Assembly (NCBI GenBank): GCA_031213475.1 | Contig: JARUPZ010000003.1 | Location: 7,680,740-7,744,739, forward strand | Reading direction: 5' to 3' | Origin: Nereocystis luetkeana | Taxonomy: Eukaryota; Sar; Phaeophyceae; Laminariales; Laminariaceae | DNA length: 64,000 nt | In this document: positions 14,799 to 64,000 of the stretch, one piece after another | Layout of the letters: every line of letters begins with the position of its first letter | How positions within the stretch are numbered: position 1 is the stretch's first letter | Notes under the pieces: model-generated | The model's database searches: none | What the model saw: the letters and a program-made list of their open reading frames with translations, nothing else | What the model was told of the DNA's origin: nothing | Made by a program: the position numbers and the translations under genes

Positions 14799-17700
14799 CC
14801 TCCCTGACCGAAAGAGGAGTTTGGTGCACTTTCAATAGATAGCAGCGAGAAAATGATCGCTATCGTAGGAGACATATGGTGGCCCCAGGCGGCGAAGCAG
14901 GTAGGGGATACTATTAATATTAGCATTTTTTTTTAATGTTAACTCGAAAGGGATGCGTGGTCAATGGTAACATGACTGAGGAAAGCAACAAATGAGTACG
15001 CCCCCCCCCCCCCGACTACGGCCATGCGTGAGATCGAGTACATCTCTCCTATCGAGTACCCCCCCCCCTCCCCCCCCCCTCCCCCTCTCCCCTCCACCCA
15101 CCCACCCACCCACCTCTCCCGCTTTGTTTCCCTCCCCCCCGCTAACCAGGCTCGCCCGTGTCCCCCCCGCCCCCCCCCCCGGTCCCCACCCCCCTCCCCC
15201 TCCCCCGATCACCCGCTTCCAGGCGAATAGGACACCTGGGCGCTATAACGCCTGCGATGACGTTTCTATTCACTCCCCTCTGGGGGGCGCTCACGGACAA
15301 GTCCGGGATGCTGAAGCAGATCCTCGTGGGAACGTTTCTCGCGTCGACGCTCCTGAGGGTGGCGCTCGCGGCTCGCACGTCCTTCCCGTGGATCATCTCG
15401 ATGATCACGCTGACGGCCGTCGTTAACGCCCCCGTGAGGCCTCTCCTCGACGCCAGCGCGCTGCAGTCGCTCGACGACCGGGGCGAGTACGGGAAGCAGC
15501 GCCTCTGGGGGCAGTGGGGGTTCGGGGTGAGAGATGATGAGGCGTGTTTTTTTTGCAAGGGACGGGGGTGGGGGAGGGAGGGGGGGGGGTGGTTCGGCCG
15601 TCGTCTTTCGTAGGTGTATCATGTACTTGGTGCAAATAGTTTTACCTGGTAGTATTTTATGATGTACTGTACGTTAGTTTTGTTTTGGGCAGGCTCTTTG
15701 TTTTGTTTTGAGAATTTTGGGTTTTACCGCCCCCCCCCCCCTTTCCTCACCCCCGCCGCAAGCAATGTCTGCGTGGTCGGTGAACACCCGACGTGCTTCG
15801 TCCAGGCATCGTAGGGATGCGAGAGTCTATGGTCACAAGAACAACGCCCATGCGTGGCATGAGCACACCCGCCCCTCCCCTGCTCCCTTCCCTCTTCGAG
15901 CCCCTCCTTATTTATATCCCCCCTCCCCCCTCTCTCCCTCCCTGTTTGGAACTCCCTCCCCCCCTCCTGTCTTCGAACCGCCTACGTAACAGATCGGGTC
16001 GTTCTTGACGGGGCGGCTGCTGTCGAGATTCGGGTTCAAGGCGGCTTTCTACACGCACGCCATGTTCTCTGTACCAACCCTCCTCATTCTGCTGAGATTC
16101 AGCCCTAGGAAGGAAGACAAGAGAAAGGACCCCCCCAAGTTCATGGAGCTGTACAAGCTCGTGGTGCACGATCCGGATGTATTGGTGAGAGTGAGAAGAG
16201 GCGTTTTTTTGTGGGAGGGAAGGGGAAAGGGGACCGGGTGGGGGGCGGGGCCGGGGGGGGGGGGGAGGGCGGGGTGTACTCATTATCATGCATGGCCGTA
16301 ATCGTATGACGATAGACCCCTGCGTCCTTTACAATGCCAGGGCGGGGCATGTTGGGGGAAGCGCGGGTGGGAAGGGGGGTTGAGGGAGGGGAGGGGGGGG
16401 GGATTGGAGGGGAGTCAAGTCAGGGGGGGGGTGGCGGGGTAGGAAAAGGATGGAGACGTGACGGGGTGGGGATGAAAGGTGGTGGGATGGGCGGAGCTGT
16501 TTGCGCCTGCGCCCAGGGCGTTTTGATGTCGTATTCTCGAATGGTGGCGGCGCTGCTTGTAAAGGTACCGTACACACGCTTCGTGGGTGGGGGGGGGTGG
16601 GGGTGTACTCGACAGGAGAGATGTACTCGATCTCATGCATGGGCGTAGTCGTATGACCGTAGGCTCTCGCATCCCTACAATGCCGGGACGGAGCATGTCG
16701 GGTTTTCACCGACCAGGCAGACATTGCTTGCACCAAGCGCGAAGCGCCGTGAGGTGGAGGACGAGCCGCATGAAGGGCGAGCTGCATCCAACTAAGAAGC
16801 GCTTGTGAGGCGGACTTGCACATGGAGGGCAGCTTCAATAAGTTAATTTAATTTAGCCACTTCCAGAGACAGCAATAGGAGTACCATGTCACTGCCTCTT
16901 GGGTGCCTTACTATTAACACAACCAAGGCACGTGGTATGATCAATTCCCTTGTGCGGAATAAAGGTTATTTACCTCGCACACATGATCTAATTCGACGAC
17001 CAGCTGTGGGCGACCGCCAAAACAAGATGGAAGAAAAAAAAACGGTACCCTGGTTGTCTAGCTCTCACGTAGTGAGCGGCATGTTTGTTACTGCGTCGTA
17101 GCCAACCGACGCCAACCCAACCTGTATACAATGGGGGGGGGAGGGGGTTGTTTTCGCACCGCCCACACGGACACACAACACACAAAACACTTGCGCACGC
17201 GAACGCCCCCCCCCCCCCCTCCTCCCTCCGCCTCCCTACTTTTTTGTGTTGTATAATTTTTGTCCCCCCCCCTCGCCACGACTGCGGGCCGAAACTTTTT
17301 CTACGTAATATATGGAAAACACGTATTTCGGGGGACCATAATAAATACCTGGTAGGACCAAGCATTGTTGATAAAAAATGGTAAATATGTAGGTATTTAG
17401 GGATTTTTGGCCAATGGTCTAGTGACTAGGGCAAGCGACAAAGGAGTATGCCCCTCCCCGCTCTCGCCCCCCTTTCCCTCCCCCCCCCGCCCCCCCGTCT
17501 TTTTTTTTTTTTTTTCTTTTAATCACTAACTTTTACTTTCCAGCCTAACTCGTAAGAGGTTTTACCCTTCGACGACCTTCTTGACAAGTCGTGGTCACAG
17601 GTGTCGTCCCTTCTCCCCCCCGGTACGCGCCTTTATTTTTTGTCGCGCATAGATAGGGGTTCAGCATTCCCCCTGCTCGTCGATTTTCATCGAATGTAGC

Positions 17701-19710
17701 TAACTCACGCTCTCGCACTTTCCGCTAATCGATTTCTTTCATGCAAGAAAAAGCCCTTTTACGGTCATACGACTACGACCATGCATGAGAGCGAGTACAT
17801 CTCTCCTATCGAGCACACCCCCCCCCCCCCCATGAGAATGTAGCATCTAGTGAAAATATCTTTTGTTACGATCCAGACTGCTGCTATTGACGGAATGTGT
17901 GAATGTGTCGATACAAATATTTATTAATAGGTGTTCTTCTCAATGGTGTTCGCGATCGGGCTGTCGAGCGGCGTCATCGAAAACTTCGCCTACAAGCGCC
18001 TCCGGGAGCTGGGGGGGACGGGGTCGGTGCTCGGGGTGTCGCGGCTGGTCTCGAGCCTCTCCGGCATCCCCATGTTCTTCTTCTCGGGAAAAATAGTCAA
18101 GCGCTTCAGCATCGTCGGCATTTTGACGGCCTCTATGATGAGCTTCATCGCTAGGTGGGCAGGGTTCGGGTGGGGTGGAAGGGAGGGGTGGAGTGGGAAG
18201 GGAGAGAGGGGCGGGGGCAGGGGGTGGGGGGAGAGAGGGAGGGAGGCAGGGAAGGGGGGGGGAGAGGGAGGGAGGCAGGGGAAGGGGGTGGGGGGCCGTT
18301 TTTTTTCGTTCGTTTTACTACTCCAGGCATCTGGTGCGTAGTTAGTTTATTTATAGTTTTACTTTTTCCTTGGACCTGATCGTCTTTTTCGGATTGTATC
18401 GGACCGAATTGGACTGGAATCGGAATCGGAATCGGATCCGCCAGTGTGAGTGTGTGTGTGTGTTTTTTAATTGGTTTGGCCTCTTCGTGCGGCACAGGTT
18501 TGTCTGGCTCTCACTCCCCTTTACTCGTTCGCTCGATGCCATTTCCAAATGCTTTGGAACACGCCGTAATCATTGCGCAGGTTCATCATCTACGCGTCGA
18601 TCAAGAACCCGTGGGCGGGGGCTCCCGGCCGAGGCTCTCAGAGGCGTCACGTTCGCGGGGTTCTGGGCCGCTAGCACTTGTCACGTCGGGGCGATCGCGC
18701 CGCCGGGGCTGTCCCACGACAATGGTGAGGTCACGGTTTGTAGTATGGATGGCGGATTAACTCTTTGGCTGACGGTCTCGCTTGCCGGGGTGGGGGTGGG
18801 GTGGGCAGAGAGAGGCAGGTTGGTTCCGCTGGTGCCAATGGTTCTGGTTCTGCTGGTTCTGGTTCTGCTGGTTCTGGTTCTGCTGGTTCTGGTTTGCTGG
18901 TTCTGGGTTTGCTCATTCTGCAGCTTCTGGTGGTGGTGGTGATGCTGGCCGTTTTTGACTTTAGGTTTGGCTTTCGCGTGAGGTTTTTGGTGCTCAATAC
19001 CAGGTGTGCCTATTATATGCCTGAACTCGGCTAGACTTGAACGTGTCCACCGCTTGGGGGAAAATGGCAATTTATCGCGAAGGGAGGCGTCCACCTGTGG
19101 GCTTTTCATTCACAAAGCGGAGCGTGAAACGCCCCGCTGGGGCCGCGGTCGCTGGAGTCGCTTTCATTGCCACACTGTCGAACCCCCCCCGCCCCCCCCC
19201 CACCCCCCCCCCACCCCTCCTCTTCATGCCCACCTTCCCGCCCAGCCACCGCCACTCCTCCCATCTACCCACCGAACCGCCCCCCCCCACACATCGACCG
19301 CCCCCCCCCCCCCCCCCCCCCCCTCCTTTCTCCGCTAACAGCTCGGGCTGCTCAACGCTACCTATGGAGGCATCGGGCAGTCCCTGGGGTCGCTCATCGG
19401 AGGCAGCCTGAGCATGCAGTTCGGGACGGCCAAGGCGTTCCTGATGTACGCAGGCGTTGACGGGATGCTTCTTCTCGCCTTCTTCCTCTTCTGGGGTCTC
19501 CACCCTAACGGCCACCAGAGAGATAGGGGAGACAGCAAGGGGATCGGGGGGGACCCGTCCTCGCGCGGGGGGAACAGGGGGGGGGAGGGGGGGGGGGAAG
19601 GGGGACCCGCCAAAAACGCCTGTCCCAACGTTGGAAGACTTGACGTTTACGCCTCCCACCACGCAGTCGCGGCAGCAGTCGGCGCCGAGATAGGGGGAAC
19701 AGAAGGGTAG
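13685..19710 (+). CDS. MFS transporter (MFSD6 / MFS_1-like), six exons, one frame break
   Basis: A membrane solute transporter of the major facilitator superfamily; the substrate cannot be read from sequence. Exons: 13685-13968, 15223-15526, 15993-16184, 17931-18154, 18581-18729 and 19342-19710, all with GT-AG introns in matching phase, giving about 506 residues. Exon 1 ends with helix 1 (VFFLFYSSLGAIMPYLPVYY). Exon 2 has the loop 2-3 motif GALTDKSG and helices 2-4. Exon 4 carries VFAIGLSSGVIENF and SGIPMFFFSGK. Exon 5 has LRGVTFAGFWAAST and IAPPGL. Exon 6 has LGLLNATYGGIGQSLGSLIG and the last helix, then a Gly-rich tail. These match the MFS_1-like/MFSD6 type. Exon 5 needs one G fewer in the G5 run at 18617-18621; as written the frame hits TAG. 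Its donor is either GAG|GTCACG (in phase) or the stronger G|GTGAGG (out of phase). The start codon is uncertain because the GC-rich frame is open upstream to 13028. Confidence 0.85.
14765..14791 (+). repeat. C27 homopolymer
   Basis: Uninterrupted run of C in MFS intron 1. Confidence 0.9.
14944..15012 (+). repeat. Family B repeat, partial, ending in C tract
   Basis: Contains CTCGAAAGGGATGCGTGGTC, then CAACAAATGAGTACGC and a C run. It lies in MFS intron 1. Confidence 0.7.
15764..15872 (+). repeat. Family A repeat, partial
   Basis: Contains GCAATGTCTGCGTGGTCGGT, CATCGTAGGGATGCGAG and TCTATGGTCA in order. It lies in MFS intron 2. Confidence 0.7.
16273..16350 (-). repeat. Family A repeat, short 3' fragment
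   Basis: Reverse copy: G tract, GTGTACTCATTATCATGCAT, then a diverged CATAGACCC...CAATGCC block. It lies in MFS intron 3. Confidence 0.6.
16600..17135 (-). mobile_element. Family A repeat, full length
   Basis: About 530 bp, reverse orientation, inside MFS intron 3. G tracts abut both ends (C tracts in the element's own orientation). The 3' end reads GAGTACACCCC and the 5' end begins near GGGTTGGCGTCGGTTGGC. No coding frame spans it. Confidence 0.75.
17325..17398. mobile_element. MITE-like foldback element, half copy
   Basis: Only the left arm (CGGGGGACCATAATAAATAC) and the interior survive; the inverted right arm is missing. A TACCTGG motif sits inside it. Confidence 0.6.
17408..17452 (+). 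repeat. Family B repeat, 3' fragment
   Basis: CAATGGTC...GGGCAAGCGACAAAGGAGTATGCCCC, diverged, followed by C-rich DNA. Confidence 0.55.
17764..17832 (+). repeat. Family A repeat, 3' fragment
   Basis: TCATACGACTACGACCATGC followed by ACATCTCTCCTATCGAGCAC and a C tract. Confidence 0.65.
18838..18902 (+). repeat. 18-bp minisatellite GGTTCTGGTTCTGCT
   Basis: About three and a half units of a CTGCTGGTTCTGGTT-type repeat within MFS intron 5. Confidence 0.8.
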
Positions 19711-26713: not shown

Positions 26714-28984
26714 CTATCTGGGGGCCTCCTTCTGTCCACCCGTCCTCGGCTGTCGCCCCACGGCCCGAGAATTGCCTGCGGCGAAGAGAGGGTTCTTCAC
26801 AACAAATCCACCGCCACCACCGCCGCCACCGCCACCGAGGTCACCGTCGTCTTCCGATCTGTTCCTCCTCGCCCTCACGTTGTCAAACCCGCGGTCGCCC
26901 TTCCTCTTCCCCTTAGCTGCAGCCGCCGTGGCCACCACCGCCGAGGAAGCCGCCGAGGGGAAATGGAAAGAGGTCGACCCCCCCCCCGCCCCGTGCGGTT
27001 CGGGCACGCTGTAGAGAGTTCGACCGTTGCTGCTGCTGCTGCTGCCACCGCCGCCGCTAACAATGCTGGCAATGGTACTGGAAAGGCTGGGAAGGCTGCC
27101 AAAGCTGCCAACGCTACCGCCCCCACCGCTTTGCCTCCCCACGCTTCCGCCACTGCCGCCGACCCCCCCTCGACGATGCACTCTGGAACTACCTGCAGTC
27201 GCTCTCTCGTCCACCAGTGGTTCCTGCTTCGACCGATCTCGTTCCTCTGAACGTTTTCCCCAGCTCTTGCTGAATGCCTTTCCGATAAAACTACCACCCC
27301 CACCACCGCCTCCACCACCGCCACCACCACCACCACCACCACCACCACCGCCGCCACCACCGCCACCACCACCACCACCACCACCGCCACCACCACCACC
27401 GCCACCGCCACCGCCACCGCCGCCACCGCCACCATCTTCGCCGCCTCCAACGCCTCCGCCGCTACCACCGACGCCATTCCCGTCTAAGTGTAAAAGTGAG
27501 TTCGCCTCCCACTCCCGGCGTAGATCCTCTCCGTCCTCGGAGTCGCTTTCGCTGTACTGCCTGCTGAGGCCGAACGCCTTGCTGACGTCAAAGATGCTCG
27601 ACAGCGCTGCGCCTTCTCCCTTAGCCCTGCCTCTGGTCCCTCCACTAGTAGCGGCCCCTGCGTTTTGCACCCCCCTCGCTCCCAGCCCCCCCCCTCCCCC
27701 TCGGCCTCCGTTCCTTAGTCTCCGCGCTAGTCCTCCCCTTCCAACTAGCCGTCCATCCCCTGCTTGCCGTTCGTGTCCCCCTCCCCCTCTCCCTCCCCGC
27801 TTCCCTCCTCCCACTCCTTGTACCGAAGCGCCTCCGCCCCCGACTGATGGTCTGGGCCTGTGGAAGTGGAGGCCGGCTTCGGGGCTGCTGCACAGTGATG
27901 GGAATGGTCGAATGCGTGGCGGTGCTTGCGGCGCTTGTGGCGCCTGCGGTGCCTGCGGTGTGTCGAGTGGGGGGCACGTCGGGGTGGGAAGAACTATGGA
28001 TACCTCCGGCATGGTGTCCCCTTCTTTTCTTTCCTCGCATGGCTGCGGCTGGTAGCGACGGATTGTATAGTCTCTGGGGTTGCTGCTGGTGTTGTCGCTG
28101 TTGTCGCTCCTGCCGCTGTTGCTTCTGCCCCTGCGGATACTATCCCTGCTGCTGCTGCCGCCGTAAGTGCTGCTGCTGCTGCTGCTATCACTATCGCTGC
28201 TGCAGCAGTCGCCACTGATTTTGTTATTGTTGTTGGTGTCGTCGTCGTTGCTAACTCTATTGTTGTTGACGGTGTGGATGCTGCAGCCATCGCTGCTCTC
28301 GCTGCTGCTGCTGCTGCTACTGCTTCTTCTGTTGTACTTCTTGTTTCTTGTGCCGATGTCGTTGTTTTCCTTGTTGCTGGCGTTGTCGGCGCCGTTGTCG
28401 AGGTTGGTGTTGTTGAAGTCGCGCTCGTTGTTGTTGCTGCTCTCGTTGTTGTTGTTGCTCTTGTTGTTGTTGTCGTTGTTGACGTTGTTGATGTTGTGGT
28501 TGTTGATGTTGTTGATGTTGTTGATGTTGTTGATGTTGTTGTTGTTGTTGCTGCTGCCGCCATCATTGCTCAAACCCTCGCTGCTGCTACTGCCACCGCC
28601 GCCGCCGCCGCCGCCGCCGCCGCTGCTGCTGCTGCTTATTCTATGGTACCTGCCGTCCTTGCTGCTGCCACTGTTATGTATGCTGCTGTTGTTGCTGCTG
28701 TTACTGCTGCTGCTTCGGATGATGCTGATGCCACGGCCGATGCTGCTGATTTCGTCATCACCATCCCGGTTGGCACCAGACTCGACTCCGCCAGCGCTAC
28801 TACCAGAGGAGTCGGCCGTGTCCGTGGGTGATCGACACTGAAGCAAGGGACGTAGGAGCAAAAGCAAGTACGCGAGCGCAAGCGTGAGAAAATACGCGGC
28901 GGTGGGGACGGCGGCGGCGGCGGCCTGGGTGGGTGGGGGGATCACAGCTGGAAAACGAGGAAACGAACTGCTACAACGGAGCAC
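26714..28984 (-). CDS. Large low-complexity open frame, probable exon
   Basis: I do not recognise the product. The frame is open for 757 codons and ends at TAG 26714-26716. The left boundary used here is not an ATG: it is the base after a CAG acceptor-like site (ATTTGTGCATACCAG|GTGCTC), so this may be an internal or last exon whose upstream exon is unidentified. Near the start is one hydrophobic helix (core YFLTLALAYLLLLLRPLL). Then come Ser/Asn-rich runs, a less repetitive stretch (SKAFGLSRQYSESDSEDGED), a Gly tract of about 60 residues at about 27290-27440, and a basic/Ser region (FIGKAFSKSWGKRSEERDRS). The opposite strand is also open (poly-Pro) across the Gly tract. The non-repetitive islands of mixed charge are the main argument for coding. 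Confidence 0.45.
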   Translation of the reverse strand: MLRCSSSFPRFPAVIPPPTQAAAAAVPTAAYFLTLALAYLLLLLRPLLQCRSPTDTADSSGSSAGGVESGANRDGDDEISSIGRGISIIRSSSSNSSNNSSIHNSGSSKDGRYHRISSSSSGGGGGGGGGGSSSSEGLSNDGGSSNNNNNINNINNINNINNHNINNVNNDNNNKSNNNNESSNNNERDFNNTNLDNGADNASNKENNDIGTRNKKYNRRSSSSSSSSESSDGCSIHTVNNNRVSNDDDTNNNNKISGDCCSSDSDSSSSSSTYGGSSSRDSIRRGRSNSGRSDNSDNTSSNPRDYTIRRYQPQPCEERKEGDTMPEVSIVLPTPTCPPLDTPQAPQAPQAPQAPPRIRPFPSLCSSPEAGLHFHRPRPSVGGGGASVQGVGGGKRGGRGGGGHERQAGDGRLVGRGGLARRLRNGGRGGGGGLGARGVQNAGAATSGGTRGRAKGEGAALSSIFDVSKAFGLSRQYSESDSEDGEDLRREWEANSLLHLDGNGVGGSGGGVGGGEDGGGGGGGGGGGGGGGGGGGGGGGGGGGGGGGGGGGGGGGGGGGGGGGSFIGKAFSKSWGKRSEERDRSKQEPLVDERATAGSSRVHRRGGVGGSGGSVGRQSGGGGSVGSFGSLPSLSSTIASIVSGGGGSSSSSNGRTLYSVPEPHGAGGGSTSFHFPSAASSAVVATAAAAKGKRKGDRGFDNVRARRNRSEDDGDLGGGGGGGGGGFVVKNPLFAAGNSRAVGRQPRTGGQKEAPR
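27292..27440. repeat. CCACCG/CCACCA array
   Basis: About 150 bp of CCACC(G/A) units, read as poly-Gly on the minus strand and poly-Pro on the plus strand. Confidence 0.9.
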
Positions 28985-29054
28985 CTGGTATGCACAAATA
29001 GGAGCAAAACCACACTCCTCCCTTTCATCTGTCTATTGTGTATGAGCTATGCCT

Positions 29055-29783: not shown

Positions 29784-32700
29784 TTATGCATGGTGTACCG
29801 GTGGTTTAGTGTCGTCGCCCTGCTCCACGTTCACGCCCACGTCTGCAGCCTCGCCATCTCCATCTCCATTCGCATCTCCACCTCCCTCATTGTCACCGCT
29901 AGCGCGGCCGATCCTCTCCCCGGCCATACTCTCCATCACCTCCTCCCGAGCCCGACCGAACATGAACGCCGAGGTCGCCCTCGACATTAGGATGGACCTT
30001 CGGCACCAACTGGACAGCGGAATGCACACCGGGGCGCCCTCTCGAACGTACCTGTCCAGGATGCGCATGGTGGTGGCCTGGACGGCAAGGCACGGTACGT
30101 ACAACAGGAAACTTTCCATTAATGTATTTCACAACGAAAACAACACATGTATCTATTTTGTTTGTCATTCTACTGAGGGGCAAGCGGGGTTGGAGTGGGA
30201 GGGGTACCGGGTTGGTGGGTGGCGGGTGGGGTTGGGTGGGGGTTGGGGGGGGTGGGGAGTGGAGAGGGGCTTGGGGGGCGGGGGCGGGGGGCACTCATTG
30301 TCACGCATGGTTGACGGAGGTGTACTGGGGGAAGGCGTGATAATGGTGGGGACGGGTTGGGGAGGGGTTGTGGGGAAGGGGAGGGCAGGGGAGGGAGCAC
30401 GAACCAAATACCTGCAGCATGAAGTAGTCTCGCAACGACTCGCGGTCGATCGTCTCCATGAAAAACCAGGCCATAGCCGACGTCGGTGGCACTTCCTTTC
30501 CCGAAGGGGACACGGGGGCGGCTACCAGCAGCTCATCCGCTCTCATCCTCTCCTGGATCATGCCGTGGAACTGCTCCTGATGCCTCGTCTTCCCGCACCC
30601 CATGTCGTCACTTGCAGCGACCAGGGCAGAAGGTAACATCGGGCGCGGGATGGGGCGGAGCGGGGCGGGGGCGGGGTACGGTCGGTGGGGGTGGTGTGGG
30701 ATGGTGTGGTGTGGCGCGGTGTGGTGTGGTGTGGTTCTGTGTGGGGTGGGGTGGGGTGGAGTGGGGAGGGGAGGGGCTGGTTGAAGAATGAGATATATTG
30801 TCTCATATGCGCGCGACCGACGTATTACGTACTACAGTAATTTTGCCGTCCTCGCGTATCGCGCATTTAACGACGGTGCCAACAGTAAGTTGTCCACCAT
30901 CGCTATTAGTATTAATAGCATATAATGTTTGCGTGTTGTTCGCCATACGGCAGCGTGCAGCACGAGTTTCAACATTGATCACCCATATGAACATTCCCAG
31001 AAACGACGAACACACATTACGTACTGAAGTACAGATACATGTTTCATGTACTATCTTTGGTGTCTCTCTTTCTGTCTCTCACATGTCCTCGAAGGCTTCG
31101 TCAGTGAGAAAATAATCCGCGAGAGGCTTCAGCAAGGGCGGGACCATAACGGCCAAGGTGGTCACCGCAGCCGCCACCACCATCGCGCCCCTCCGCCCGC
31201 GAGGGTTCCCCTCCAGCCCTTGGTGTATGAGGGGAAGCGCCAAGACCGCCACGGCTAGAGCCACCGACGTTGCGACAGCCGCGGCAAACTCGTCTGGCGC
31301 CTTTTACATGCCGTTCATGTGACAGAGGGATATGCCATACACACGCGGGATTGGGCGGGGTGGGAAAGCCGAGGATAGCTTTTTTTATTTAGTTTGCGAA
31401 ATCGTACGAGAAGGAGGAAAACATGGGGAAGGGGGAAGAGAGGGGGGGGGGAAGGGGGGTACAGAGAGAGCGACAGGGAGGGAGGCAAGGAGGGAGGGAG
31501 CTAAAGGGATGTATATATAGACCAGCGAAAACAGTGAGGGACGCGTTGAGGAACGGGTTGGGGGACGCGTTGCCCCCCCCCCCCCCCCCAACATTTCCGA
31601 AAAACTTTTGTGATGCAGACGCAAATACTGGTAAAATACGCGGTGGCGCAGTCGCACACACCTGAAGTCGCGCCTTCCGGAGGCGATACGTAAGCACGGC
31701 TGTAGCCGCGGCCACAAGTACCATAACCCCGACCGCGAAGGCTTCCGGCACGTCGGACCGCGCCTCGCACTCTTGTGTGAGCGGATCGAATACCAGAATA
31801 CTTGGACGGGCGAGAAAGGTCGCCAGCGGTAGTAGCAGCAGCGGGACCAGCAGCGTCAACAGCTGTTTGACGTAGGACCAAGAGAAAGTTTGGAAGCGGT
31901 CATGGTAATGGTTTGGTGGGGGGGTGGGCGGGGAAGCTAGAGTTATGTCAAAGGGATGAGAGGCTGGGCTAAAAAGCGAACTCCGAATACTAGTACTGCG
32001 AAAAAGTTTATGTATCAAGAAGTAGTTCCGAGTACCCGCACTGTATTTTTTTCCCATATCATGGGGGCGCGGTTGTATTGAGGACATATCCCTTTTATGC
32101 TGTATCACAGGACCTGTTCAACTGAATCACTTGTGAGAAAGTTGTCGTTCATTTTGCAACGGTTGTAGGTCCACGTTGAGCCACAGGTCAGCGTCGAAGG
32201 CCGATACGACAATACATGCTTGTACCACGACGGGAGAGAAGCGGAAGGTTCTTACTACAATTTATCGGCACACTTAAACATTGTGTTGCGTGCTTTCGAC
32301 GTGATGTGTGCTGGGTCAGAGAAGTAGCGTACCCCTCGCGCGGCACAAGCGCAAGCACGCGTGATTGCGACTTCGCGCTTTATCGGCATGGGGTCTTTTC
32401 TCATCGGAGAACAACTGCACATCATACACATCGCACACGGTATACACATATCAGGCCCTTATGCATCAGACAACTATTATACAAACCATACACACCAAGC
32501 ACGTTCTTCACACCATACACAATAGCATCATGCACCATATACACATCATGCATCAATACTGATACGCTTCATACGCCTCATACATATCATCCACATCATC
32601 CACATGATCATCGATATAGTATCACTGCTGCCAATGACGTGGGGGTGGAACGTTGACGAGGACTAGAATAGACGAGGACTTGCCAAGAGAGGAAGGCGCA

Positions 32701-34319
32701 AGTGGGAGCTCTTGACAAGGGACAACGATATAGCCGTTGGTCCAGAATGATAGAAGAGGGAACGCTGCTGCGGGACTAGAAGGTGTTCGACTGAAGGTAG
32801 AATGCAACATGTAAGATACATCGTCGGAGGGCAAGCTTGATGTTGAGTTATGGTCATACACGCCGTACACATCATACACGTCATACTCATAATATACATC
32901 GTAAACAACATATACACCATCTGCGTCATACACGCCATCCATGCAGCACATGCATACGCACATGAATCAGACTCCGCCCTGCCCCGGCCCGCCCCGCTCT
33001 GATAGCGATACATACTCTCACCAGCCTTACCGCAAAAAATAAAGGCTTTTGGGTATCCCGCAAAACTTGCTCTAACCTCCCAGATAATCGCGATCTTATT
33101 TCTATGATGTGATGCACCACTCTCTACCCAGACGCAAGAACCAATATGATTTCATACTGTTCCACAACAAGCACTCCTCGCACTTTGGGACACATTGGTG
33201 TACAGTACGTGCCTGCAGAGGAACCGGCCACATGGCTCCGTTGTGCAGGACGAGGACGCTGTGCGTCCTGTACACGCGGACGCAGGCGCAGGAGAACAGC
33301 CCCCCGGCCCCCGCCCACAGCAGACACGCCTTCGCTCCGCAGCCCACGGGCTGCGAGACCTCTTCCATCTTCGCCCCCCACAGCCCGTACCTCATCGCCG
33401 CGGCCACGGTGCACAGCGTCCCCTTCTCGAGAGTTTTTAACAAACGAAAAAACAAAACAAATAGCAATTGACGCAATGTTCCCGGGGGGCGTCGGCGTGA
33501 GTACGAGGTAGGAGGAAAACAAGGAGTCTCGGGGAGGGGAGGAGGGGGGGGCGTACTCCCGCGTTGTCTTTGCCTTAGTCTCTTGGCCAGTCACCGCGCA
33601 TCCCTTTCGGGAAGGAGCACCGCTCCTACTTCTGTCACAGGGAGGGGGGGGGTCACTTGCTGCTTGTGAGTTGTCCTTCGAAGTCTAGCCGAGGAGCGCG
33701 ATGAGAGTCTCCAGGTATGTATACACGAGGTATGTGAACGTGGTGGGACGCGGTGGGGCGCTGCTGCTGCAAGTGTTTTCTCGCTTCTTGAGGTATATTA
33801 ACTTCTTCCAGTACTATGCTTGTACTCCTGACATGTTTTGAGCAATGTCGCCGTTGTTGGGGAGGGACTGGCTGGTGTGTGTCACGACCCGAGGTCCTGA
33901 ACAAATCTCCCCCAGATCTCCGCGCCAAGATCTTCGCCGCAAATTTCGGTATGCGTGTATTAATAGTACCTCGTGAGGTGTGTGTCATGCCTTACAGGCA
34001 GCTTGCGAGCTCAACATACGCAATGTCAGTCAATGCAGGCGGTTTGCGAGCTCCTCGACGCGGACTGGTTCAGTCAAATCCCTTCTTGCGCGAGCGTTGA
34101 TCGATATTGCGCTATATCATGGCTCTCACTGGTTTTCCGGGGGTAAGTATACAGTAGTAGTAATTGTACTTACAGTAGAGTCCTTAGAACCTACTACGGT
34201 TAATAAACAGACGGGGGTATGCACCGTAGTTAGCAGTGTGTGTTTTCGGGTCCATTGTGGGCTCTGATGACCCGCACATATACCTGATATTAGTACATAT
34301 ATACTTCGAAGTAATATAT

Positions 34320-34371
<52 letters not shown>

Positions 34372-35741
34372 CCCCTCCGTAAAAAATAGGTGTATCGCTC
34401 CTACTTCTATACTAGACCTGCCATCCGACAATGTGCAGCATGAGTTGTCACGTTGATCAATCAAAACATTCCTGAAATGAAAGAAGAAATCTCCCTATCT
34501 ATGTATACGAAGGAAACCTTTACACCAAGTCTATCTATCTTCTACGTCGTATGTCTGCTTTCTTTTAGGTTTTATCTGCGATACTCCAATATTACTGTAG
34601 CACGTCACCAGGAACATGCACGATCCACTGATGGAGGGCTAAAGTACTCTCCTCATTCTTAGCAATTTTAATACATGTAGAGTACGATGCTTTTAATAGT
34701 TTGTTTTGCCAGGTGTATCGTGGGATAACTGTGCGTTATTATTGTATGAATAATACGTAAGGGGAACCACATACATTACATGCCGAATGCTTAATGGACA
34801 CGAGAACATCCGATTCGGTGTCTACGTAGAAAATAACGACTTACCAGGTACCATGCACAGTATACACAACCCTCCGACTTTGCGACACTGCGACTCACCC
34901 ACACATCGCACACCAAGTACCGCCCCCGGGAGCGGCAGGCTATGATAGCCACGAAACATCGCCCCCACAAGTAATGTATTCAATATTACCACCGGTCATC
35001 ATACACAGGTCATACGCGGTGGAACAACTCGTGTATGCGTTTTTTCCGTCGTATATGCGTTTTTCCGCAATGCTTCGTGCCCCATACACCGACTGAGAAC
35101 GAACGTGAACAAGCACCTGCGCCCGGTACACACGCCATTTTCATTGCTACTATTAATACATACTACTGTATATGCCTCACATCCGTCCAGTAGACTCCAA
35201 ACAGCGAAGCACCTCGACAAGTCGTCGTTAAAGCAGACTGATAGTCTAGACTGCCGTACTATTAATACCATACTGTACAATACCGTACTATTTAATGCTA
35301 CAGTACTGTAGTACTGCTAAATACTGTAGAAAGCAAAACAAGAATCAGTGTCAGTATCAGTCTACAAATCAGTAGTCACACCTGTTACCCTGGTGGTATA
35401 ATACATAGTGATCCAGCACAATCAATGTGAGTGTAAGTATGCCTGCGGTAGGTACGAACACCTATACCAGTCACCGGTATACTGCTGTGGTATGCGGTTG
35501 GGACGGAAACAAAGAGATAACGCAAAGAAAGACACGAACGAGGTGCACTCACAGTGAACGCGGTGCAAGCGAGAAGAGTCGGGATACTTGCCCTGTACGG
35601 GGGCCACGTCCGGTTCGCCAGAACGTGAAGCAGTAGCAGCGCCACCGCCACATCCACGCACGTCGCCACCCCTACGGCCGCGAGGTCCCGCTGGCCCACA
35701 GACTTCCAGGCGATCGTGTCCTCGCTGACGCCTGATGCCAT
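29784..35741 (-). CDS. Seven-transmembrane RGS protein, six exons
   Basis: Predicted regulator of heterotrimeric G-protein signalling: a 7TM membrane protein with a cytoplasmic RGS-like domain, the layout known from Arabidopsis RGS1. Exons (5' to 3'): 35741-35553, 33422-33213, 31862-31662, 31300-31083, 30610-30412 and 30077-29784; all phases agree and give 436 residues. Hydrophobic segments lie at about 20-42, 51-77, 94-114, 134-153, 172-193, 205-226 and 238-258. Helix 2 becomes continuous only when exons 1 and 2 are joined. The RGS-like part (about 275-400) has TSAMAWFFMETIDRES, with a Glu near 325, then MRILDRYVREGAPVCIPLSS and AREEVMESM. The tail is Gly/Asp-rich. The second intron starts with GC (CTGCAG|GCACGT). 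An in-frame TAA lies three codons before the ATG, fixing it as the first in-frame start. The RGS match is by pattern, not search. Confidence 0.75.
30190..30300 (+). repeat. G-rich low-complexity tract in RGS intron 5
   Basis: GGGTTGGGTGGG-type sequence. A second G-rich stretch (GGTGTGGTGTGG, about 30650-30780) lies in RGS intron 4. Confidence 0.8.
32395..32965 (+). repeat. Degenerate CATACACAT minisatellite in RGS intron 2
   Basis: Two blocks (about 32400-32600 and 32845-32965) rich in CATACACATCATACAC-type 9-bp units, separated by unique sequence. Confidence 0.7.
33545..33625 (-). repeat. Family B repeat, 3' part
   Basis: Reverse copy: G tract, GCGTACTC..., TCTTTGCCTTAGTCTCTTGG and GCGCATCCCTTTCGGGA. 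It lies inside RGS intron 1. Confidence 0.65.
34313..34368. repeat. AT dinucleotide run
   Basis: About 55 bp of alternating A and T with one interruption, inside RGS intron 1. It directly follows the palindrome TACTTCGAAGTA. Confidence 0.9.
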
Positions 35742-63100: not shown

Positions 63101-63755
63101 ACTTCGACGCCCTGGTTGAGAAGGAGGTTCTGCCCTCTGTCTTGCAGCACCTGAACAAAAAAAAAAAAACCCAACAAAACAACCAAAAGCAAACAGGAAC
63201 AACGAAAAAAATAAAAAATAAAAAAAAAGTATTAAGACACGCAGCAAAAGCCGAGAAGAGCATCACGAAAGGAAGGAGAGCACAACAAAAGTGGAAGAAG
63301 ACACAAAAAAAAAAAGCAGGGCAGAAGAGAGAGCAGGCCGAGGCCAAATAAAGCAGAAGCGGAGCAAACGAAAGGCAAAAGAGCAAAAGCACAACTCAAA
63401 GAAAAGGACAGAAACGAATCTTAACAGATACCAGGCGCAAGGCATTGAACACTAAAATAGGTACCGTATGCGACGAGTGTGAATGATAGAACACAACCCA
63501 TCCAGTATATCACCCTCCCCCCCACAGTATACCACCCGGGCGGTTGTTGCGGTACTGTAATTTCCTAAACGACCACCCGAGTTATCACCCGGGGTGGTAT
63601 CACACCTTTTCGAACATGGGCAGAACTTTTCCCGTGGACACGACCGTCAGGCTGATCAGCCCCACCAGCTCGGGGAACAGCCTGGGGACGTCGCTGCCGA
63701 TCAGGTCCGTCAGCTCTCCCGTGAACTCTATCCCTGTCGGCCCCGCTCCGATCAC
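51704..63755 (-). CDS. Type II NAD(P)H:ubiquinone oxidoreductase (NDH-2), 5'-partial
   Basis: Single-subunit, non-proton-pumping dehydrogenase that passes electrons from NAD(P)H through FAD to ubiquinone on the inner mitochondrial membrane. Eight exons (5' to 3'): 63755-63606, 63150-63061, 61111-60957, 60232-60142, 56422-56345, 55028-54894, 52415-52317 and 51784-51704 (TAA at 51704-51706), encoding 292 residues in consistent phase. Visible are the second nucleotide-binding fold VIGAGPTGIEFTGE, the NDH-2 signatures IPYGLCFWAGG and YLRVLGTNG...ALGDAA, then VAAQEGAYLARLLNRG, LGVLAYIGMGQ, FFLWRSTYVVKQ and the C-terminal RINVAVDWLKVRFFGRDI. The FAD-binding exons must lie beyond 64000. No EF-hand insertion is seen. 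Introns 6 and 7 have GC donors (both CAG|GCAAGC). The exon 5 donor lies in a GTCA repeat, so that junction is uncertain. Confidence 0.93.
51975..52027 (-). repeat. Family A repeat, short 3' fragment
   Basis: GGGGTACTCGATATCATGCA followed by a GTAGTCACATGACCAT block, in the last NDH-2 intron. Confidence 0.6.
53207..53272 (+). repeat. Family F repeat, 3' fragment
   Basis: ACGCGCGATCGAAGCATCAC...ATGACCTTCGATGAAACCCTC, in an NDH-2 intron. Confidence 0.6.
54083..54185 (-). repeat. Family B repeat, 3' part, with G30 tract
   Basis: A run of 30 G (54086-54115) is followed by CGTACTCATTTGTTTCTTGC and GCGCATCCCTTTCGAGACGG. Confidence 0.75.
54204..54443 (+). repeat. Dispersed repeat family F, full-length copy
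   Basis: Partner of 10249-10495, with the blocks CCACTCGTGG, GCTACGTGCAA, CTGCAGCTTCAGA and CGCGCAATCGAAGTA in order. Confidence 0.65.
55205..55290 (+). repeat. AAAC/AACG simple repeat
   Basis: ACAAACAAACAAACAAAC-type tract in NDH-2 intron 5. Confidence 0.85.
56310..56344 (-). repeat. GTCA microsatellite forming the NDH-2 exon 5 donor
   Basis: On the minus strand the intron begins GTCAGTCAGTCAGTCAGTCA, so every unit offers a GTCAGT donor 4 bp apart. Confidence 0.9.
56632..56720. repeat. Foldback element, family D copy 3
   Basis: CCCTTTAGAACCGCCGTCCC...TTTTGGGGGCAA faces TTGTTCCCAAAACGGGGC...GGTTCTAAAAGGG, the best preserved arms of the family. Confidence 0.8.
56862..56918 (+). repeat. Family F repeat, 3' fragment
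   Basis: GTATCACGCACAGCTTGTAA...TTTCGACTAAACCCTCGATC. A MITE copy begins immediately after it. Confidence 0.6.
56919..57023. mobile_element. MITE-like foldback element, copy 7
   Basis: ATTACGGGGGACCATGTAGA and the inverted GATCCCCCGTAAA; the inner AAACCTAT...TTTTTACCAAT shows the opposite orientation to the other copies. Confidence 0.7.
57645..58180 (-). mobile_element. Family A repeat, full length
   Basis: About 530 bp, reverse orientation, in NDH-2 intron 4. G tracts abut both ends (57643-57653 and 58175-58185). It carries all inner blocks of the 25.7 kb copy. Confidence 0.8.
59171..59262. repeat. Foldback element, family D copy 4
   Basis: CACCGCAGTCCCGTATAGGGGACA faces TGTCCCCAGAACGGAACTGC; arms diverged. 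Confidence 0.65.
59346..59457. mobile_element. MITE-like foldback element, copy 8
   Basis: CACGGGGGACCACAGTGAAT and the inverted CATTTACTCCGGTCCCCCGT, with the shared ATTGTTAGTAAAAA core. Confidence 0.75.
60463..60545. repeat. Foldback element, family D copy 5
   Basis: AACTGCAGCCCCCGTTCTGGGGACAA and the diverged inverted TTTTGCTCCCAGAAAGGGTT. A further AGAACTGCAACCATTC fragment follows to about 60580. Confidence 0.6.
61763..61993. repeat. GGGTC pentamer clusters with an inverted block
   Basis: Three GGGTCGGGTC clusters (about 61818-61838, 61873-61888, 61918-61960) are followed by ACCCGACCCGACCC in the opposite sense (61968-61982), so the region can fold back. It lies in NDH-2 intron 2. Confidence 0.85.
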
Positions 63756-63882
63756 CTGAAGGATTGGGAAAAAAAAACAGAGACAAGAAATAGAGAGGAT
63801 GGCATAAAACATGGGGGGCGGGGAAGAAAAAATGTGGGAAACAAAAAACCTACGTACGGAAAAAAAAGTATGGGTAAAAAAA

Positions 63883-63920
63883 AGGAAGATGGAAGGAAGG
63901 AAGGAAGGAAGGAAGGAAGA
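63883..63920 (+). repeat. GGAA tetranucleotide run
   Basis: About nine GAAG units, upstream of the first visible NDH-2 exon. Confidence 0.9.
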
Positions 63921-64000
63921 TGGACAGCAAAACATAAGAACACAAATAGACATGGAAGCAAGGTGGAGAGCACACATGGGAAAACAAAGCATATGGAAGG

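Follow-up and report, generated by a model that had tools for sequence, protein, structure and literature searches.

Does the minus-strand gene at positions 29784–35741 of a 64-kb window of the Nereocystis luetkeana genome encode a seven-helix receptor fused to an RGS domain (7TM-RGS), on the plan of Arabidopsis RGS1 (AtRGS1)? The window, by which we mean the whole stretch of DNA analysed, is C3:7680740–7744739 of an assembly of 465 Mb in 1987 contigs. In plants, 7TM-RGS proteins link signals from outside the cell to a G protein that activates itself, and how widely they occur among eukaryotes is relevant to the question of whether the receptor as a brake predates the receptor as an activator. 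Our best reading, with a probability of about 60 %, is that a six-exon gene encodes a 436-residue seven-helix membrane protein of class C GPCR-like type, in which a short outer N-terminus precedes the helices and a divergent RGS-homology domain follows them on the cytosolic side. The protein was filed as 7TM-RGS-like and not as a proven 7TM-RGS member.

In-phase joining of six minus-strand exons, from 35741 down to the stop codon at 29784, gave exactly 436 residues, reproducing the model proposed in an earlier note on this DNA. Exon 1 (35553–35741), an open frame followed by the donor GTGAGT, carries the start codon, a 19-residue N-terminus, TM1 and the beginning of TM2. The remainder of TM2, TM3 and the loop after it lie in exon 2 (33213–33422), while exon 3 (31662–31862) supplies TM4, the loop bearing Cys165 and TM5. 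TM6, TM7 and the beginning of the linker are in exon 4 (31083–31300). Exon 5 (30412–30610) continues the linker and includes at its 3′ end the stretch that aligns with RGS helix 4 (WFFMETIDRESLRDYFMLQ), and exon 6 (29784–30077) contains the stretch aligned with RGS helices 5–7, an acidic low-complexity tail and the stop codon. Four of the five introns have GT donors and end in AG; the exception is intron 2, which starts with GC (CTGCAG|GCACGT), a donor required for phase. The 436 joined codons are free of inner stops. GC content was lowest at codon position 2 in all six exons and highest at position 3 in all but exon 3 (0.668, 0.492 and 0.769 at positions 1, 2 and 3 of the CDS, with 0.46–0.60 in the introns), a pattern consistent with the model. 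The splicing is predicted from the DNA.

The claim of seven hydrophobic segments also held. Merging 11 hydropathy windows produced seven segments at approximately residues 20–38, 55–73, 95–113, 132–150, 174–192, 207–225 and 239–257, of which the second and third were weak (1.6 and 1.57), and an extra peak at 119–137 (1.25) overlapped the fourth. When residues 1–273 were used as the query, PF00003, the family of class C GPCR helices, matched residues 24–249 at 38 bits (E 1.9e-9; cut-off 33.5) over positions 13–240 of the 251 in the profile, and the full 436-residue protein scored 36.1 bits. No match to PF00003 was obtained with any of 10 hydropathy-preserving shuffles. In a dropout test that covered exons 2 and 3, omission of exon 2 reduced the score to 19.3 bits and omission of exon 3 removed the match. 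A phmmer search of the 7TM part against PDB returned no match at E 1. The membrane topology is a prediction from these segments. In it, Cys96 and Cys165 are placed as the helix 3–outer loop 2 disulphide of GPCRs, a bond that their positions suggest, with Cys91 as an alternative candidate. Both Cys96 and Cys165 align with cysteines of AtRGS1, for which an assumed sequence is used here and throughout.

PF00003 was the sole family to exceed its curated cut-off in the protein, and in this the helices resemble those of class C GPCRs, including the class C-like GPCRs described for diatoms (PMC3727952). This match would be accounted for by an ordinary class C-like GPCR whose cytosolic tail is poorly conserved and unrelated to RGS domains, the resemblance being due to chance. 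Unlike class C GPCRs, the 436-residue model has no outer ligand-binding domain: 19 residues precede TM1, a Venus flytrap domain is absent within the model, and an RGS-like tail is present instead. The fusion of GPCR helices to an additional signalling domain is also a feature of the GPCR-bigrams of oomycetes, but the partners named in the portion of that work consulted are lipid kinases, phosphatases, cyclases, phosphodiesterases and kinases, not RGS domains (PMC5784254).

The similarity of the tail to RGS domains was weak. The earlier note had proposed a PF00615 search of the spliced protein as a check, and in a Pfam search of the full 436 residues this family was not listed. Among six tail fragments, five gave a match (14.3, 13.6, 13.2, 14.2 and 14.5 bits), all below the cut-off of 23.9, and no complete RGS box was therefore found by this measure. 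The best of these (14.5 bits) covered profile positions 46–102 of 117, approximately helices 4–7, and its E-value of 0.046, obtained over 24,736 Pfam models, translates to about 2e-6 when PF00615 is counted as the single, pre-named model, with six fragments tried. Exon 6 alone accounted for the score of 13.2 bits (E 0.12), and exon 5 alone had no match to PF00615 or to any other Pfam family. TrAA12 reached E-values of 0.0021 to 0.021 on the three fragments that included the acidic end, the best of them on exon 6 alone (16.9 bits, cut-off 30.9). These are better E-values than those for RGS, but they lie far under the family's own cut-off, and TrAA12 was rejected as an identity for the acidic tail and taken as a low-complexity match. 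When the acidic end was removed, RGS was the only family listed for the remaining 122 residues.

A custom RGS profile was built from seven PDB-derived chains (RGS4, RGS3, RGS8, RGS6, RGS7, axin and RGS5) together with the assumed AtRGS1 sequence. On residues 273–402 it scored 13.0 bits, the alignment starting at residue 322. Of 20,000 shuffles made, 15,642 were scored and none reached this value, the best being 7.8 bits. The part of the RGS-like domain claim that stands is this similarity beyond shuffles; the subthreshold PF00615 score goes against the rest of it. A phmmer search of the tail against PDB listed five chains, no RGS protein among them, and a genome-wide RGS search of the contigs listed no match at the 29784–35741 locus at E 0.001. 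Taken over helices 4–7, the tail is probably related to RGS domains. The ordinary-GPCR alternative gains from the PF00615 scores, which fell below the cut-off and behind TrAA12 on some fragments, but it has to treat as chance a profile score that the shuffles did not attain, the listing of RGS alone for the trimmed tail and the pairwise alignment of the tail with the assumed AtRGS1 sequence described below. We consider it unlikely.

RGS helices 1–3 and 8 were unrecognisable in the profile alignment, and the MAFFT alignment of the tail contained a 20-residue insertion. Together with the GC donor of exon 2, the unrecognisable helices 1–3 and the insertion are what would be expected if the model were partly wrong, with an exon for RGS helices 1–3 missed, or if the locus were a decaying gene, a pseudogene whose RGS end has degenerated. 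The other minus-strand frames of 32000–29700 were searched for helices 1–3, and the two matches found were trivial (best E 0.025, for one model). A microexon between exons 5 and 6 was considered when the region of RGS helices 4–5 seemed about 11 residues short, with RESLRDYF paired with ENIDFW. It was ruled out by the profile alignment, in which Phe322-Phe323 pair with RGS4 Phe91-Trp92. The stretch aligned with RGS4 91–118 is ungapped, so no exon need be missing there, and the sole candidate to pass the filter in a microexon search of intron 5 was 18 bases long and not convincing. As the uninterrupted frame and the low GC at codon position 2 in every exon also speak against decay, a faulty model or a pseudogene appears distinctly improbable.

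The six-exon, 7TM-RGS-like reading was also compared with AtRGS1 directly. The local alignment score with the assumed sequence was 75 for the 7TM part (shuffles 37.6 ± 7.3), 55 for the C-terminal part (26.1 ± 3.9) and 92 for the whole protein (38.4 ± 7.1), and in each case none of 1000 shuffles reached the score. The whole alignment with the assumed AtRGS1 was colinear and paired CLLWA with CYLWA and DPLTQEC with KPLNDKC. Among the 1069 open frames of at least 40 residues in the window, that of exon 6 ranked first against the C-terminal half of the assumed AtRGS1, narrowly (49 versus 46). Against its 7TM half no exon of the gene led; its best single frame, that of exon 2, scored 42 and a frame elsewhere 50. 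A tblastn search of the 64-kb window with the assumed AtRGS1 gave 17 matches at E up to 50, none of them within the gene.

The two proteins, AtRGS1 being again the assumed sequence, have in common seven helices, a short outer N-terminus, a C-terminal RGS region and colinearity over both halves. They differ in that the assumed AtRGS1 has a full RGS box (PF00615 at 52.5 bits) with Glu, Glu and Asn kept at the contact positions and no match to PF00003, whereas the Nereocystis protein matches PF00003 and has a partial RGS region. Because the helices of the assumed AtRGS1 have no PF00003 match, the evidence of kinship between the two 7TM regions is a single pairwise score. The AtRGS1-type architecture described earlier was accordingly recovered in part: seven helices precede an RGS-related tail in colinear order, but the complete RGS box and the contact residues are lacking.

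The earlier note had implied that receptor-coupled RGS control outside land plants would be a novelty, which it is not. Besides the 7TM-RGS genes reported in land plants (PMC3386157, PMC3718340), a study of Naegleria fowleri describes 28 such genes, reports measured GAP activity for some of their domains and names Trichomonas as a further case (PMC9283941). The likeness to the Naegleria fowleri proteins, drawn from that description only, is that seven helices are followed by a C-terminal RGS domain and that the protist has several G-alpha proteins; the difference is that several of those proteins have complex outer domains and some have been measured as GAPs (PMC9283941). In the stramenopiles, published accounts give six G-alpha paralogues and GPCR candidates for Ectocarpus (PMC3879662) and a complete RGS domain in one of four diatom species (PMC3727952). 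No published case of a stramenopile 7TM-RGS turned up in searches of an open-access library. Searches for relatives of exon 4 in phages and viral contigs, and of the whole protein in prokaryote contigs, found none; these collections are ill-suited to a eukaryotic gene.

Possible partners exist in the same genome, in that exons matching G-alpha lie at 14 sites spread over four contigs (C8, C12, C22 and C28), two of the 14 with an in-frame stop, and the motif DVGGQR was read at one locus from each of the four contigs. The genome also holds a stronger RGS box, C7:12690117–12690440, which scored 37.7 bits in a single open frame. A tblastn search of the DNA around this box with the 436-residue protein gave one match, at chance level (E 3.4).

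The residues of the working site were located with RGS4 numbering fixed by matching the full-length chain 1agr_E (62–174), and we take Glu87, Glu126 and Asn128 to be the residues that contact G-alpha in the RGS4–Gi-alpha1 structure. In the profile alignment Glu126 corresponds to Cys357 and Asn128 to Pro359. Glu87 falls outside that alignment and lands on Ala318 by ungapped extension, on Met319 in the pairwise alignment with the assumed AtRGS1 or on Asp298 in the MAFFT alignment. The Glu of WFFME, at residue 325, had been put forward as the essential Glu of the fourth RGS helix, an identification that fails, as Glu325 aligns with RGS4 Ser94 and takes the place of Glu87 in none of these alignments. 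Glu, Glu and Asn are all kept in the RGS box on C7. In Selaginella the corresponding positions are Glu313, Glu355 and Asn357, where alanine mutants were made under a heading stating that targeted mutations disrupt the interaction (PMC11061236), which lends the list of contacts partial support.

These substitutions bear most directly on whether the protein is a true 7TM-RGS GAP like AtRGS1, divergent in sequence and still able to accelerate GTP hydrolysis on a G-alpha of the cell. Such activity would fit the colinearity with the assumed AtRGS1 over both halves, the G-alpha exons in the genome and the GAP action of protist 7TM-RGS domains described in PMC9283941. The replacement of Asn128 by Pro and of Glu126 by Cys, at positions conserved in the C7 box and matching those mutated in Selaginella, counts against it, and we regard a true GAP as rather unlikely. 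GAP activity of the tail is doubtful on these residues, and the RGS box on C7 would be the likelier GAP in this genome. With the G-alpha contact residues exchanged, we judge binding or scaffolding to be no less probable than genuine acceleration of GTP hydrolysis; a working GAP is possible, with non-catalytic binding rated the likelier. It is possible, and we suggest it tentatively, that a tethered RGS domain that has lost the contact Asn and Glu binds G-alpha at the membrane or acts there as a decoy, GAP-dead and not an off-switch. This would sit beside the ordinary G-alpha genes and the separate, canonical-looking RGS box present in the lineage.

If the 7TM-RGS-like reading is correct, the seven helices would most likely keep the RGS-like tail at the membrane, adjoining the G-alpha proteins of the cell, and a cue from outside or within the membrane may alter the meeting of tail and G-alpha, as in plant RGS1. 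Both the contact with G-alpha and its regulation by a cue are put forward as predictions. Class C-like helices in a divergent member would provide a link at the sequence level between the brake known from plants and the GPCR superfamily, and a form lacking the key contact residues would reveal what remains after the brake activity is lost.

Several other features were noted in the window. Intron 1 of the gene holds a 55-base AT dinucleotide repeat (34314–34368). Directly downstream of the gene, also on the minus strand, a 772-codon open frame (26717–29032) is rich in simple-sequence repeats (Ser, Asn and Gly runs), had no Pfam match and is probably repeat DNA and not a gene. On the plus strand, 15146–15610 and 19339–19707 are exons encoding a transporter of the major facilitator superfamily, the first matching PF12832 at 66.3 bits and the second PF07690 at a subthreshold 17.1 bits, and they perhaps form one gene with long introns. 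At the end of the window, a minus-strand frame (63603–63998) reading VIGAGPTGIEFTGEL had a subthreshold match (12.0 bits) to PF07992, pyridine nucleotide-disulphide oxidoreductase, and may be one exon of a gene for a type II NADH dehydrogenase.
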